Program-made: the position numbers and the translations under genes
Shown: positions 1,341 through 48,230 of the stretch, piece after piece
How the letters are laid out: every line of letters starts with the position of its first letter
How positions within the stretch are numbered: position 1 is the first letter of the stretch
From: Marine group II euryarchaeote REDSEA-S11_B3N4
GTDB lineage: Archaea; Thermoplasmatota; Poseidoniia; Poseidoniales; Thalassarchaeaceae
DNA length: 60,339 bases
Assembly: GCA_001628485.1 (NCBI GenBank)
Contig: LURR01000003.1
Span: 1 to 60,339 of the forward strand
Direction: 5' to 3'
The notes under the pieces: model-generated
Databases searched by the model: none
What the model was told of the DNA's origin: nothing
The model's input: the letters and a program-made list of their open reading frames with translations, nothing else

Positions 1341-4300
1341 CCAGGGCGTCATCTAGGAATGATACATCGATGTCGTCACCCTCTTCCTCGAGTTCGTCTG
1401 CTAGGTCGTTCAGGCCCTCCAGGCCGATTTCCTCGGTCTGCGCGCTCAGAATCTCCCCGACCGAGGCATCGGGCTCCCATGACTCATCCAACGGGATTTC
1501 TTCCATGGTGGTTTCTTCCACATCTTCGGTTTGGTCCTCTGAAATACTATCTGTCTGACTCAGAATCGAGCTTGAAGCTATCTCCTCCTCCTCTGATATG
1601 CCGAGGGCCTCCCTGGTCAGCTCCTCCTCCAACTCTACCTCCTGTGTCCCCATCTCCCAGGGTTGTGGTGCTGCTCTCTCCCTGGGTCTGATGATTAGGG
1701 CAGCGCCAAGGATGATCATCAGAGCAGAGACCATCAGGATGAAGGTGTTCAGATCCCCATCCACCAGCTGGTCGAACCACGACTCTCCCCCTGAACCTGA
1801 ACCATCTCCATTTCCTCCGGGGGACACCTCGGAGAGTGGGTATACCCTGATGGAGTCCACGGCTAGCCTGTGGACTTCCCCATCGAATGCGACTACTGCT
1901 ATCCAGTATGCGGTCGAGGGGTTAACGGGGGTCGGGCCTATGGACTCGAAGGACGAGTTCGTGGATGTTATCGAGGACTGCACAGGAATGGCGTCCCTGG
2001 TGTCTGAGAATTGCATGGTGCTGGCATACATCGTGTACGATTTCACCTGGGGATCTTCAGAGTCTGTCCAAAGGACCTCGATTCGATTTCCCGATGGGTC
2101 CCAGTATGCCATGATCTCTGAGACCTCGGGGAGGTGCATTCCCGGGTCCTGTGAGTTCTCGTCCACCGGGCTTATCATGGATGTCTCCAGATTGTCAGTC
2201 CAGGCGTTCCCTGATGTGTCCACGGGCACCACTGCAACCCAGACGGGTATGTCTGGTCGGATGGCTCCACCTCCGGAGACCTTCTCGAGTAGGGTGCGTC
2301 CCCACTGGGTCCTGTCCAGAGTCAATGCTGGCTCGAGACCCTCGGTGCTGTCGAATGGGGCTCCTGCGACCGCGAATAGGAGGTATTCTCCGATGTCCTG
2401 GGCCGTACTGGAGGGGAACGTGACGAAGACCCCGTCGCCGGAGTCGGGCGACCTGTCCTCCAAATCTGGGGCCGCTAGCCTCTCAGGGGGGAACATATCG
2501 CCCCTGTTGTCTATTGGGGTGACTAGAGCCAAGTGATCGCTTAGTCCAGACAGGAAGACGTTGCCAGCGATGTCATGGATGGTGACCGTGACGTAGAGGG
2601 GTATGTCTGGCGATATGCGAGACGGTGTCAGTGAGCCTGGTTCGGAGCCATACAGGGCAGTCGTCAGAGTCACATCCAGTCTTGGAGAGTTTCCTATCTG
2701 CCTCTGGTCTATCGTCAAGGCGTTGCAGTTGCCACTTGCCTCGCATGATTCGTATACGTCTGTCAGGTCATCCAGAGGGAAGTCGGATGCCCAAACGGTG
2801 TAGTGGCTGAAGTCCTCTGCCATCGTCCTGTCCCAACTGACGTCTATCGCGGTTCCATCGTCCTCGGGATGGTCCCAGGCTTGTAGGCCAGAGACTAAAT
2901 CGGGCGGGGAGAATTCGGAAGAGTCTAGCTCGGAGTAGCTGGCTGTTTCTACCACTAGGACATCGTCTACGTTCTGATTGCCCCAGTCATCCACTGCCAC
3001 GACCCCGATCCAGTAGACGATGTCGTTCTCCAGGGTGGTGTTTCCGATTGAGTCTATGATCACCTCATCGGTGGTGCAGTCGGGAATGATCTCGGCTATT
3101 GGCCAGCCGTCTACGGAGGTAGGAGAGGTCCATCCAGATGCAGGGAGGATGTAGATGACGTGGTAGGAACAGTCCGCCTCCTGGTTTGGGTTCCAGCTTA
3201 CCTCGATTCGGCTTCCCTCGTCGTTGGGGGCGTCGTTCGCGGAGGTCCCGGTAATCGGCATTGGGGCTATCCCGTCATTGAGGCCTCCAGCAGTCACAAC
3301 TGGACCCACGACTGTGGCGTTAGAGGGATCAAACTGTCCCGACTCGTCGACGCACACGACTGCGAACCAGTATGGGACGTTTCCATCTAACTCAAGCGTG
3401 GTCGAGTTGCCAGCAGCGAATGCGAAGTCCATCGGTTCGGAAAGAGCCAGGGCGTTGGTTATCTCCTGCTGGACAGCCCAGATTCTGGTTAGTTGTGGGT
3501 CTAGCTCCTGACAGGCAGACCACTCTGCTGTCACGGTTCCGGGAACCCCTCCTGACACTGGTTGGACGTCTAGCCATTCTGGCGGAGATGGAATCTCATC
3601 GGTCGGAGTAGCGTTGCCTTCCCATGAAGTTGGGTCTCCGAGGCTTCCGTCTGGATACTCGATTGCTATTGCGGCCCTGTACTGCCTCTGATCTGATAGC
3701 GGTACCTCAGAGCCATTGCTGTTGCCTGTTTGGAACACAGTGGTAGTCTGAGACCAGTACGGGATTCTCTGGTATGAGGGTAGGTCGTCGAGTTCGTCCT
3801 TGGTTGGATTCCAGTCTGGATTGTCAGTGGAATCCCAAAGATACACCCTGTAGGCGTACCATGCAGAGTCCTGAGCAGGCATCCAGGATGCATGCAGGAC
3901 ACCGCCTCCGTCATTTGGCCTGTCATAGAGGCTGGTCATCACTGTGGGAGCCTCTAGTCTCTCCCAATCGTAAGTGATCCTGATCTTGAGTTTACCATCG
4001 TTAGGTGACTGCATCTGGAGGTGCACTGTAGAGGATAGCGATCCTGGTTGTGTATCGAATATCGCAGTCTGGAAAGCCTCCTCTATTCCATGGTCAAGAG
4101 AAGCCAGGTCCCAGCTTCCAGTGTAGTTCAGGTTGGTCGATCTGGCCCATACCCACGAGCCGCTCTCCGGAGAAGAGAAGGTGAGCGCCCCGGGATAAAG
4201 GAGAATCTCCGAAGAGTTGTCCTGGTTCTGGTCCAGTGGGATCGTGATCGGGTTATCTGAGGACGCGAATACGGTCTGCATCCCTGGTCTGGTGCTTTCT

Positions 4301-43319: not shown

Positions 43320-44822
43320 GTGAGTGCGTACGAAGAATTACTGACGAGGCTGAAAGATATCGACTTGATTAGACAGATAGGGAGCCTATTGAGTTGGGAT
43401 CAGGAGGTGCTGATGCCTCCAAAGGCAGCTCCTCTGAGGGCGGAGCAACTTGCTTGGATTTCGAAGACTGCCCATGAGAGGCTAACTGACGCCAGAATAG
43501 GAGAAATATTGGATGAGATCGAGTCCAATGATGATATGGATGAAATTACATCGGCGAATATCAGGCTTGCGAGGGAGGCTTTTGACAGGGCAACGAAATT
43601 GCCTACAGAGTTCGTCGAAGAGATGGCGAAGCATCGTTCCAGGGCTCTGATTTCTTGGACTGAGGCGAGGGAGAAGGACGATTTCTCAATCTTCCGTGAT
43701 GATCTCGAAATAGCGATTGGTCATGCAAGGATGAAGGCCGATTTCTTCGGATATGATGGTCTGAGATACGATGCCCTGCTCGATCTTTATGAGAGCGGTC
43801 TAACCGTGGAAAGACTCGACCCGCTGTTCTCGGGTCTTAGAGAAAATGTGGCACCCCTGATTAAGGAAGTAGTGGAAAGGGGCGAAGGGCCAGACCTCTC
43901 ATGGGTTACTGAAAGCACATGGAGTCAGAAAGCACAGGAGGAGTTGAGCCAAAGTGTTTCTGAGGCAATAGGTTTCGATTTCGAGGCAGGGAGGAGGGAT
44001 CTATCCACTCACCCTTTCTGTGGGGGGCCTAATCCCGACGATGTTAGGTGGACAACTCGCTATAGTGAAGAGGATCCGTTCGGATCGCTGTTTGGTTCAA
44101 TGCATGAAACAGGTCACGGCACGTACGAACAGGGTAGACCTAGGGATTTGGACTTCCAACCAGCAGGGAAGGCAAACGGTCTCGGGATTCACGAGAGTCA
44201 AAGTCGCCTCTGGGAGAATCAGATAGGAAGATCCAGGGAATTTTGTGAATGGTCCATCCCGTTGTGGAGGAAGTTCTTCCCAGAAAATATGGACGGAGTC
44301 AGCGCAGAGCAACTATGGCAGGCAGTTAATTTGGTGAAGCCTGGGTTAATCAGGGTAGATGCTGATGAGGCCACATACAATCTACACATCATGATAAGGT
44401 ATGAGATCGAAAAGCAACTCATTGCTGGCGAAATAGATGTAGATGATCTTCCTGATGCTTGGGACGAAATGTACAATGAATACTTGGGAATTAGAGCTCC
44501 GAACCGTACACTGGGGGTGCTTCAGGATATTCACTGGTCAATGGGTGCAATCGGCTACTTCCCAACGTACACTCTCGGGAATTTATACGCTGCTCAACTG
44601 CTCGAGTCAGCTAGAAATGATCTCCCAGAACACGACACTCAGATTAGGGAGGGGGACTTCTTCCCGCTACTCAAATGGATGAGAGATAATGTCCACTCAA
44701 GGGGGAGCGTGCTAGAGCCAGCGGAATTAATCAAGGAAGCAACTGGACAGGACCCTTCCCCTGATGCTTTCATAAGATATCTTGGCTCAAAGGTTGAGAG
44801 GCTGTACGGAGTTAGTGCTTAG
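43320..44822 (+). CDS. Carboxypeptidase Taq, M32 family metallopeptidase
   Basis: 500 residues from a GTG at 43320, the usual length for the family. The zinc motif HETGH (in MHETGHGTYEQG) lies near residue 261, with a Glu about 30 residues later in GIHESQSRLWEN as third ligand. The N-terminus (LTRLKDIDLIRQIGSLLSWDQEVLMPPKAAPLRAEQLAWIS) is the typical M32 opening, and the C-terminus (GYFPTYTLGNLYAAQLLE) is also diagnostic. It removes C-terminal residues from peptides. A propeller-protein gene follows 16 bp downstream. Confidence 0.95.
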   Translation: MSAYEELLTRLKDIDLIRQIGSLLSWDQEVLMPPKAAPLRAEQLAWISKTAHERLTDARIGEILDEIESNDDMDEITSANIRLAREAFDRATKLPTEFVEEMAKHRSRALISWTEAREKDDFSIFRDDLEIAIGHARMKADFFGYDGLRYDALLDLYESGLTVERLDPLFSGLRENVAPLIKEVVERGEGPDLSWVTESTWSQKAQEELSQSVSEAIGFDFEAGRRDLSTHPFCGGPNPDDVRWTTRYSEEDPFGSLFGSMHETGHGTYEQGRPRDLDFQPAGKANGLGIHESQSRLWENQIGRSREFCEWSIPLWRKFFPENMDGVSAEQLWQAVNLVKPGLIRVDADEATYNLHIMIRYEIEKQLIAGEIDVDDLPDAWDEMYNEYLGIRAPNRTLGVLQDIHWSMGAIGYFPTYTLGNLYAAQLLESARNDLPEHDTQIREGDFFPLLKWMRDNVHSRGSVLEPAELIKEATGQDPSPDAFIRYLGSKVERLYGVSA

Positions 44823-44838
44823 AAGAGATGGGGTGCAT

Positions 44839-45924
44839 ATGACAGTTTCCAGTCTTAATGACTACTCCTCCCTAATCAGGAATATTGGAGGGGAGTGTGC
44901 CTTCGTCAGAGTCTCAGGTGAATTACTGTTATCGGGTTCCAAATCAGGAGAGGTTGCTTGCTGGGATTTGAACAGCGGTAAAGAGATGTGGAGGTCCAAG
45001 TTTGAGGGTCCTTGTTCCAATGCGGATTCCAACAAAGATTTCCTGTTCTTCACAGAGTCAGATAGAGTTCATGCAATTATGTTGTCCTCTGGAGATGAGG
45101 CTTGGTGCGTGGAGCTTGAGGGTTCGAGCGATCTTGTTAGAGTTTCATCAGAATGTGTTTGGGTGACTTCGTCTGTTTACAACTTCGAGATTCAGGACTA
45201 TTCAGATGGTTCGGTATGGAAAATTGACTATTCCGGAAAAGTTAGGTGGAAGGGGGACACGATAGGGAGAGCCTGGTCTCTTTCTGATTTTCAGGGACAG
45301 GCAATCATGGGACTTAGTAGGCCTAAGTGTGGATATGCCATTGCATCCGAAACAGGGATTGAATATCTTGAGTTGGAAGAAAAAAAGCCGATAACTGCTG
45401 GATGTAAATTAGATGGGGGAGGGATAGTTTTCGGGCATAGCAATGGATCAGTGACTGAGATATATGGGGGAGTTAGCTCTACCGTTAGCTTAGGAGACTC
45501 TGCTATCCGCGCGATGGATTGCGGAAGTAGTTGGGTTGTAGGGCTCGATTCTGGAGTCGTTTCAACCGGCAAATCCCTTGGATCTTGGAAGATAGAGTCT
45601 TTGGAGTCCATTGATGTAGTTTCATTCGGTCCTTCGTTGGACGATGTCGCAGGCATATGGTATTCGTCATGGAACGATAAAGGAGGAATTTTCCTAGTCG
45701 ACTCGTCAATTGGGAGTCTGCAGCTCGAGCTCTCTCACGAATCTAGGATAGTAGCGTGTTTCGCTACTGAGCATACGATTTGCTTTGGGGATATTAGCGG
45801 ATGCATACATGTGATCGAGGAGGAGGTTCTCCGGCGTCGTTTCGGAAGGCTCCCAGAAACAGATATTGAATCTGGAAGAGAGTCGGAGCTCAGGAAGAAA
45901 ATACGTGCACTGCGAGGTGCCTAA
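44839..45924 (+). CDS. PQQ-like beta-propeller protein
   Basis: 361 residues from the ATG at 44839; a frame extension to 44782 overlaps the peptidase gene and is less likely. Repeated strands such as LLSGSKSGEVACWDLNSGKEMWRSKFEG and GSVWKIDYSGKVRWKGDT are the PQQ-like/YVTN propeller pattern (GxVxxxDxxSGxxxW). No signal peptide and no cofactor-binding residues can be assigned. It ends with a charged helix (RRRFGRLPETDIESGRESE). Function unknown; likely a scaffold or interaction platform. Same direction as the upstream M32 peptidase. Confidence 0.8.
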   Translation: MTVSSLNDYSSLIRNIGGECAFVRVSGELLLSGSKSGEVACWDLNSGKEMWRSKFEGPCSNADSNKDFLFFTESDRVHAIMLSSGDEAWCVELEGSSDLVRVSSECVWVTSSVYNFEIQDYSDGSVWKIDYSGKVRWKGDTIGRAWSLSDFQGQAIMGLSRPKCGYAIASETGIEYLELEEKKPITAGCKLDGGGIVFGHSNGSVTEIYGGVSSTVSLGDSAIRAMDCGSSWVVGLDSGVVSTGKSLGSWKIESLESIDVVSFGPSLDDVAGIWYSSWNDKGGIFLVDSSIGSLQLELSHESRIVACFATEHTICFGDISGCIHVIEEEVLRRRFGRLPETDIESGRESELRKKIRALRGA

Positions 45925-45988
45925 TTTGCAATGGAAAAACATCCCCAAGAACCCCTATTTCCAGTGAACTGCTCTAATATTGGCGAAA

Positions 45989-45998
45989 TGTTTATGAG
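45989..45998 (+). promoter_or_regulatory. TATA-like box for the structured RNA
   Basis: TGTTTATGAG in the otherwise gene-free 45925-46628 region lies about 25 bp before the GC-rich structured block that starts near 46018. This is box A position for a plus-strand transcript starting about 46018-46024. Confidence 0.45.
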
Positions 45999-46017: not shown

Positions 46018-46590
46018 CTTTGCCGCTCCGGGGGAGTGGTGTGAGGGCGCTTCAGCGCGACTCGCGGGCCACAAAAACCGAGCCCCGAAACCGGGGCGGT
46101 AGAACCGAAATCCGAAAGGAAATCGGGGAAAGGCTGGAGCGTCTGTGGACGCAAAGGCCGCGGCGAATAAATCGGACAAACTGGAGGTAACGAAGGGGAG
46201 AGCGAGATAGGAGCTGAAGAGATACACATGCGTAGGGGGAAGAGAATGAACCTGGGTCATGTAGGTGGGGAACGAGGCAGAGATAACCGGACGCAAGGAA
46301 GGGGAAGGAAACCAAGGGAAACACCGGGCAACAAGGGCGGGGAGACCCGTGGAGGAGCCAGTATCGAGACGTGAAAGGAAAAGCGGAGACGAAGTACCAG
46401 AAGCGGATGCGGCGAGTGAGAGGGAGATCTATCATGAGTCGGAAAACGACAAAGGAAGAGCATGAAGTTCCGGAGTCTTCTACCCGGGGGAACCCGGGCC
46501 TTCGGGCCCGGGGGACACCCGGACCCTGCGGAGTTAACAGGGGGGGAAGCTCCCCCATGTGCTGAACCCCCTGTTGCTCCCACCTGAAAT
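46018..46590 (+). ncRNA. Candidate long structured noncoding RNA, family unknown
   Basis: This GC-rich block fills a 700-bp gap with no credible protein gene. Hairpins read on the plus strand include GCGC-UUCA-GCGC (46047-46058), GCCCCG-AAAC-CGGGGC (46082-46097), CCGA/UCGG over UCC-GAAA-GGA (46105-46126, tandem A-A internal loop), GCGUC-UGUG-GACGC (46139-46152), CGGG-GAGA-CCCG (46338-46349) and an 8-bp GC stem with a UUCG tetraloop (46493-46512), enclosed by CCGGG/CCCGG. A 9-bp stem AACAGGGGG/CCCCCUGUU (46536-46575) lies near the end. GNRA and UUCG loops are orientation-specific and favour the plus strand. No RNase P core (GAAAGUC / ACAGAA) or SRP helix 8 motif was found. Ends are approximate. 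Confidence 0.55.
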
Positions 46591-46628: not shown

Positions 46629-48230
46629 TTATTCGCTTGGACCAGTCATATCACTAGGTCTGACCCATTCTTCGAACTGCTGCTCATTCACCAGGTCCAG
46701 TTGGATAGCGCTTTGTCTTAGAGTAAGCCCTTTCTCATGGGCATTCTTGGCGATTTTAGCTGCATTGTCGTATCCGATGTGTGGATTCAGAGCGGTGACT
46801 AGCATCAATGAGTTCTCGAGGTGCTCGGCAATCTTTGCTTCGTTTGCGCTGAGTCCGAGTATGCAATTTTCAGAGAAAGATACACAGCTATCTGAAAGCA
46901 GCCTTGTGCTATGCAGGAGATTATGGATCATCAACGGCTTGAAGACGTTCAGTTCGAAGTTTCCCTGACTTCCGCCGATGGAGATAGCAACGTGGTTCCC
47001 CATTACCTGGCAACAGACCATAGTCATGGCCTCAGACTGTGTTGGATTGACCTTGCCGGGCATTATACTAGAGCCAGGTTCGTTCGCGGGCAGAGAGAGT
47101 TCTCCAAAACCACACCTAGGTCCGGATCCAAGCCATCTAACATCATTGGCTATCTTCATCAACGAGGCTGAAAGTGTATTCAGAGCGCCCGAAGCTGCTA
47201 CGATGGCATCGTGAGCTGCTAATTGTGCAAACTTGTTCTCTGCGCTGATGAAGGGTAGTCCTGTCTTCTCTGATATCCTATCAGCGACCAATTCTGCGAA
47301 ATCGGGATGAGTATTGAGGCCGGTTCCAACTGCAGTCCCTCCTAGTGCTAGTTCGTACAAATCGTTCAGGACCGTTTGAATCCTTATCAAGTCGGCATCC
47401 AACATCGACACGTAAGCACCAAACTCCTGTCCAAGTGTTAGCGGGACGGCGTCCATGAGGTGAGTCCTGCCGATTTTGACTATCTCAGAGAACTCTTCCT
47501 CCTTCTCCGCTAGAGAATGTCGAAGTTTCAGTACTGATGGAATTAGCCGATGTTGTATTTCCTCGGCTGCAGCAATGTGCATTGCAGTTGGAAACGTATC
47601 ATTACTAGATTGAGCGCGGTTTACATGATCATTAGGGTGTACAGGAGACTTACTGCCCAGCTTTCCTCCGGAAATCTCAATAGCCCTATTCGCAATAACC
47701 TCGTTTGCGTTCATGTTCGTCTGAGTCCCAGAGCCCGTCTGCCAGATTCTTAGAGGGAAATGGGAGTCTAGATTTCCAGAAATCACCTCTTCGCATGTTT
47801 CCGTGATCAGTTTTCCAATATCATCTTCCAGTACTCCGAGCTTGACATTTGTCTCCGCAGCTGCCTGCTTTAGGATTCCGAATGCACGAATCACTGATCG
47901 GGGCATCTTATCTTCTCCTATATCGAAGTTGATCAGAGATCTTGCTGTCTGTGCCCCATAGTATCTATCAGCAGGAACTTCTATGTCCCCCATTGTATCA
48001 GTCTCAACCCTCACTTTGAGATTGGTCTTGTTCGGCTTGCGAGACTCAATCTCTTCGGAGGTGGACTTGTTGATAACTGCTCCAGAAAGGGAGTTTTCAA
48101 TCATCCTGGAAATAGTGGCAGACCTTCCTGCCCCTCTACCCTTACCAACCCTAGCGTCCAATCTTCTAGCAATATCCTCGGGAATACTGACTGAAATTAT
48201 TCTACGATCGCCCACACGATGCTTCGCCAT
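46629..48230 (-). CDS. fumC: Class II fumarate hydratase with N-terminal ribbon-helix-helix DNA-binding domain
   Basis: 533 residues, about 70 more than a normal class II fumarase. Residues about 8-48 form a CopG/Arc-like ribbon-helix-helix: strand RRIISVSIP, helix [11 protein letters not shown] and helix [14 protein letters not shown] polar linker (about 50-72) leads into the fumarase from [23 protein letters not shown]. Catalytic landmarks are intact: [39 protein letters not shown] and the [11 protein letters not shown] signature (about residue 388). It interconverts fumarate and malate in the TCA cycle. The ATG sits about 29 bp below a strong TATA-like sequence, supporting the long form; an internal Met at residue 80 could give a plain fumarase. 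Confidence 0.93.

Follow-up and report, generated by a model that had tools for sequence, protein, structure and literature searches.

The window analyzed here, a stretch of 60,339 nucleotides from the Marine group II euryarchaeote REDSEA-S11_B3N4 (contig LURR01000003.1), contains a block without genes between the gene for a PQQ-type beta-propeller protein of 380 aa (44782–45924, plus strand) and the convergent fumarase C gene, fumC (46629–48230, minus strand). Few archaea of the surface ocean are as abundant as those of Marine Group II, of which we know no cultured member. An earlier note, made from the sequence alone, had proposed that this gene-free, GC- and purine-rich block encodes, on the plus strand, a long structured RNA of unknown family without the diagnostic cores of RNase P RNA or SRP RNA, and had suggested a search of Rfam and an alignment of relatives with a covariation analysis. 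As judged from sequence comparison, positions 46018–46585 of the plus strand are almost certainly the gene for a long, folded, untranslated RNA (inferred transcript, approximately 568 nucleotides), an assignment that is supported by conservation, covariation and covariance models; the gene appears to be single-copy, independently promoted, without an Rfam family and vertically inherited in Poseidoniales, its ends and promoter being conserved and its interior fast to change. Across the copies, the RNA ranges in length from approximately 500 to 930 nucleotides, with approximately 570 in the window.

The composition described earlier was confirmed: the GC content of the block is 0.58–0.59 (genome mean, 0.509), and purines make up 68–69% of the plus strand in its 500-nucleotide windows, which rank 62–79 among the 25,490 windows of the genome. 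The most purine-skewed 500-nucleotide windows of the genome, above the RNA block, are located at G000:C29:20801–21251 and 3551–3751 (73–76% purine). The absence of genes also proved correct, in that the open reading frames of the minus strand (up to 168 aa) reflect composition, and open frames change between relatives. The 168-aa frame at 46052–46558 of the minus strand, which lies over the RNA, is such an artefact and could be called as a gene by automatic annotation. A protein-coding gene was rejected, since insertions and deletions within the genus are all of 1 or 2 nucleotides and reading frames are not conserved.

The region upstream of the block carries a conserved element consisting of a left half-site at 45925–45939 (TTTGCAATGGAAAAA; family consensus, CAGTGGAAA), which almost every copy in the two families considered below retains, and a right, inverted half-site at 45957–45972 (ATTTCCAGTGAACTGC). 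This element is followed by a BRE/TATA box, CGAAATGTTTATG, at 45984–45996, which is conserved in relatives and lies approximately 25 nucleotides upstream of the inferred start; the TATA-like box of the earlier note is present as TTTATG at 45991–45996. In family f1 (Thalassarchaeaceae, MGII.B), almost every copy is preceded by the bipartite site (CAGTGGAAA, approximately 20 nucleotides, TTTCCAGTGnACTGC) and a TATA box; the forms in family f2, presumably MGII.A, are more degenerate. A profile of the right half-site and TATA box scores 60.3 bits here and 6.3 bits at the next best place in this nearly complete assembly; the genome contains no other such site and no regulon was seen, and the factor that binds it therefore appears, on the evidence of these scores, to serve the RNA gene alone.

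Predicted structure and covariation

The hairpins with GNRA and UUCG loops described in the earlier note are all present, with GAAA at 46111–46120, GAGA at 46337–46350 and approximately 46416–46435, and UUCG at 46493–46512, and hairpins capped by GNRA or UNCG tetraloops are more frequent than in shuffled sequences (three observed, 0.6 expected, p = 0.01). The folding energy is only modestly unusual relative to shuffled sequence, and equally so for the two strands (z = −2.35 and −2.20), so that the case for an RNA rests on conservation and covariation, both of which proved strong when relatives were aligned.

The predicted 5′ domain comprises five hairpins. P1 (46022–46040), the 5′-terminal hairpin GCCGCUCC-GGG-GGAGUGGU, is conserved more than any other element in the two families, is paired in 100% of cases and takes a covarying form, GUCGCUCU/AGAGUGAU, in genus g2. 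It is followed by P2 (46041–46065), which has a UUCG-type loop (UUCA here) and six pairs changed on both sides, by P3 (46077–46100) and the GAAA-capped P4 (46105–46126), both supported by covariation, and by P5 (46133–46158), which has a UGUG loop and a purine internal loop that turns Watson–Crick in some genera. In this domain, 22 of the 39 pairs are changed on both sides, compared with 8.5 by shuffling, and none of 500 shuffles reached 22; when the structure was slid along the alignment, only 2–7 such pairs were obtained. The GUGG of P1 (46036–46039) could also pair with a conserved CCAC (46069–46072), which would make P1 and an extended P2 mutually exclusive; this alternative is possibly a switch and possibly a misreading.

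In the interior, the helix-level test described below supports P8 (ACAUG/CAUGU, 46226–46262) and P10 (GCGGG-GAGA-CCCGU, 46337–46350), both also found in the consensus, as well as the P11/P12 stem (46369–46406) and the GAGA-capped P13 (46415–46436). Toward the 3′ end, P16/P17 (46484–46522) is a CCGG/CCGG helix around the UUCG-capped hairpin, and P18/P19 (46528–46581) is a 3′-terminal stem, GCGGAG...CUCCC, that encloses ACAGGGGG/CCCCCUGU and has a C-rich loop. Across both families, 8 of the 17 pairs of the 3′ stem are changed on both sides (4.7 in shuffles) and 96% are paired. The C-rich loop (46550–46556) reads CUCCCCC here and CCACCC or CUCCCC in other genera, with changing flanks, and is possibly a docking or base-pairing site. 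At the genus level, the consensus further contains a predicted short helix between the GGG of CGCGGGCCAC in the conserved 5′ part and the CCC of GGACCCUGCGG in the conserved 3′ part, but this helix is invariant and remains a prediction only.

An unguided helix search of 58 f1 sequences, performed with a rate-preserving, tree-based null, identified 27 significant windows on nine mutually compatible diagonals; the same search yielded two conflicting diagonals on shared columns in fumC and none in the PQQ gene. This helix-level test was purpose-made and is not R-scape; its first null was too lenient, giving 12 windows in the fumC coding control, and was replaced by the rate-preserving one. Tests at the level of single pairs have little power: no significant column pair was obtained with a G statistic and a tree-based null, and an event-counting test gave only four.

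Two hairpins of the interior consist largely of purines. Purine hairpin 1 (46181–46196), CUGGAG-GUAA-CGAAGG, is inferred to have G-A pairs below its GNRA cap, and its closing pair swaps G-C with C-G (8:7); purine hairpin 2 (46285–46304), AACCGGAC-GCAA-GGAAGGGG, the pairing of which is likewise inferred, has a closing pair that is C-G in 11 cases and G-C in five, and is the one that occurs in multiplied form in other genera. The 67 extracted sequences contain 88 instances of the motif GGA[C/G/U]-GNRA-[G/C/A]GAA, where 3.6 would be expected, and in some genomes the hairpin is found at four or five places of the RNA. Below the cap, units like GGAGAGAACU on one arm are matched by units like GGGGAAGGAA on the other, and each 10-nucleotide unit, if drawn as an antiparallel duplex, would contain eight purine–purine oppositions and two standard pairs. 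The number of units is equal on both arms in 61 of the 88 hairpins, compared with 30.5 by permutation, although the hairpins in this count are not independent, including as they do related species and repeated copies of one hairpin. The element thus appears to be a recurring GNRA-capped hairpin, built mostly of purine–purine pairs, that gains 10-nucleotide units on both arms together. The purine–purine duplex itself, for example in the hairpin GGAGAGAACUGGAC-GCAA-GGAAGGGGAAGGAA, is an inference, and G-quadruplexes or single-stranded purine runs are rival interpretations. The paired growth of the units offers a naturally selected example of an extended non-canonical RNA duplex that can be tested.

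Distribution and synteny in Poseidoniales

Of 60 relatives, 31 gave a match to the block in a plain DNA search, with 79–98% identity over approximately 640 nucleotides in most members of the genus, whereas in this set of species the amino-acid identity of the protein encoded by the upstream PQQ gene drops to as little as 37%; the RNA is therefore the slow-changing part of the locus. More distant copies were sought with covariance models, of which R1 (5′ domain) and R2 (3′ domain) were built from the family of the window and R3 was built from divergent genera only, with the f1 copies outside its training set. R1 identified copies in 128 of 293 Poseidoniales genomes, one of which was judged to be a chance match, comprising f1 copies and weak but syntenic f2 copies; R3 identified copies in 148 of the 293, including the f1 copies not used in training. 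Thus, R1 and R3, which derive from different genera, each recover the copies of the other. For most of the distant copies, R2 placed the 3′ domain where it was expected; the scores of several were weak. The combined range covers every genus of f1 and 3 of the 11 tested genera of f2 (g14, g16 and g22), and the models found no copy outside Poseidoniales among 390 genomes of the phylum. Among the public records with this conserved 5′ motif are Candidatus Thalassarchaeaceae and Marine Group II metagenome-assembled genomes (MAGs), in agreement with the placement in Poseidoniales suggested by the earlier note. The model match in genome G261 (locus L185) was discarded, since it seemingly lies in a protein-coding stretch, as judged by eye. 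A pattern scan of viral sequences was also set aside: the first pattern was too loose, and the three matches of a tighter one were judged to be chance without a closer look.

Nearly all copies checked, in both families, are located between the PQQ beta-propeller gene and the convergent fumC. A riboswitch or mRNA leader would precede the gene under its control and share its direction, unlike the present RNA gene, the next neighbour of which, fumC, points the opposite way in these copies. In the f2 genera g11, g12 and g15, the interval between the PQQ gene and fumC contains other sequence or almost nothing, so that the gene was lost there or never gained. Intervals of f2 genera without a copy include L260, L265 and L266 (genomes G038, G047 and G044), and in G044 the two genes are almost back to back. 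The absence of the gene from several f2 genera, judged both from synteny and from the models, indicates that the RNA is not indispensable in the order.

Genera g4, g8, g10 and g6 (loci L025, L028, L029 and L030) carry an extra domain that is absent from the genus of the window, in which two copies of GGGGAAAAC(A)AAACCGAACC surround a UUCG-type hairpin inside a CUGG/CCAG stem. A second match to the 5′ model was found in genome G019 (L268:3989–4117, contig C32, E = 2.7e-7), inside an AGUGC...GCACU outer stem and between unrelated genes; a conserved paralogue was rejected, because only approximately 37 nucleotides, in the P1/P2 region, are shared and the locus is not conserved elsewhere in the family.

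Identity and possible function

A cmscan search of the window against Rfam 15 gave no match above the gathering threshold and none at a relaxed threshold (best sub-threshold E = 1.9), and no Rfam match was obtained in nine loci that included distant copies. This absence, together with the conservation and covariation in relatives, upholds the proposal of a structured RNA of unknown family. The exclusion of RNase P and SRP RNAs was also borne out. Both are likewise structured RNA genes of the same genome, but they are encoded on other contigs and neither model matches 46018–46585: the sole match to archaeal RNase P RNA (RF00373) is at C19:3179–3470 (237.6 bits) and the sole match to archaeal SRP RNA (RF01857) is at C16:2015–2327 (112.2 bits).

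We favor the interpretation that the RNA works as a stable architectural RNA, because it is long, single-copy and independently promoted, with hairpin-closed ends, a fixed core and a modular periphery. In the proposed scheme, the terminal hairpins would protect the RNA, the 5′ domain (P1–P5) and the 3′ domain (P16–P19) would form the fixed core, the GNRA-capped purine–purine rods of the interior would offer repeated docking surfaces to protein or to other copies of the RNA, and its synthesis would be governed by the bipartite activator site, dedicated to this gene, that precedes the TATA box. The explanation as a whole, an RNA gene with an architectural role, is the best available and is given a probability of approximately 0.55; the role taken by itself, which is derived from anatomy and analogy only and without transcript data, is tentative. 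It is conceivable, at somewhat less than even odds, that the gene belongs to an unrecognised class of large Marine Group II RNA, the interior of which consists of sheared G-A type rods that gain 10-nucleotide units on both arms and are copied to several places, so forming a modular structural RNA and possibly a large particle, alone or with protein. A long RNA with a dedicated promoter, kept by all of f1 and part of f2, points to an unstudied cellular function, and no comparable large ornate RNA has, to our knowledge, been described in archaea.

The nearest in kind, although not relatives, are ROOL, GOLLD and OLE, in which A-minor contacts, kissing loops and an A-A helix hold homo-oligomers together (PMC12286853). 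They resemble the Marine Group II RNA in being long, elaborately folded and untranslated, of unclear function, and composed of a conserved core and variable parts; however, they are bacterial, whereas the present RNA is archaeal, is syntenic beside fumC and has purine-rich hairpins that grow by 10-nucleotide units, and the cmscan search against all of Rfam 15 gave no match to them.

The literature search revealed no prior description of the RNA, aside from a possible link to Tan1 (Thalassoarchaea ncRNA 1), an abundant Marine Group II ncRNA of 229 nucleotides that a 2016 metatranscriptome study names alongside the RNase P and SRP RNAs. It is reported to be complex in structure and highly abundant in the northern Red Sea and to have relatives of 75–79% identity in Ca. 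Thalassoarchaea (PMC5069720). That the RNA is, or contains, Tan1 and is hence partly known is somewhat unlikely, in the absence of a sequence comparison; this question concerns identity and is compatible with the other readings. The same archaeal clade, the complex structure and the unknown function are common to both, but 229 nucleotides differ from approximately 570, the lengths that the same study gives for the RNase P and SRP RNAs are nearly full (PMC5069720), and the genome has other gene-free gaps. If Tan1 is part of the RNA, high expression has already been demonstrated, and the novelty lies in the full extent, range and structure.

Two other roles remain possible beside that of an architectural RNA. 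In one, which we consider unlikely, the RNA is a regulator or decoy, the 3′ C-rich loop and/or G/A-rich hairpins of which bind mRNAs or titrate an RNA-binding protein, with copy number tuned by hairpin multiplication; the persistence of the loop despite changing flanks, the four- to fivefold multiplication of one hairpin in some genomes and the dedicated promoter are consistent with this, but no target or partner has been identified, and the length and the number of covarying helices exceed the needs of a simple decoy. In the other, which is slightly less likely still, the RNA is part of an RNP that serves translation either as a catalyst or by guiding modification, in the manner of RNase P or guide RNAs. 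Wide conservation, syntenic inheritance and a conserved core with a variable periphery, as in housekeeping RNPs, would fit such a component; the RNase P and SRP RNAs are, however, encoded elsewhere in the genome, no Rfam guide-RNA match was obtained, and some f2 genera lack the gene. Finally, a DNA element (an origin or recombination site) or a decayed gene could account for the inverted repeats and the long open stretches of the minus strand, but it is very improbable in view of the compensatory changes in helices, the plus-strand type of the tetraloops, the promoter directly upstream, the unconserved frames and the G-U pairs, which within the helices are four times as frequent as A-C (161:40), and a DNA element was rejected.
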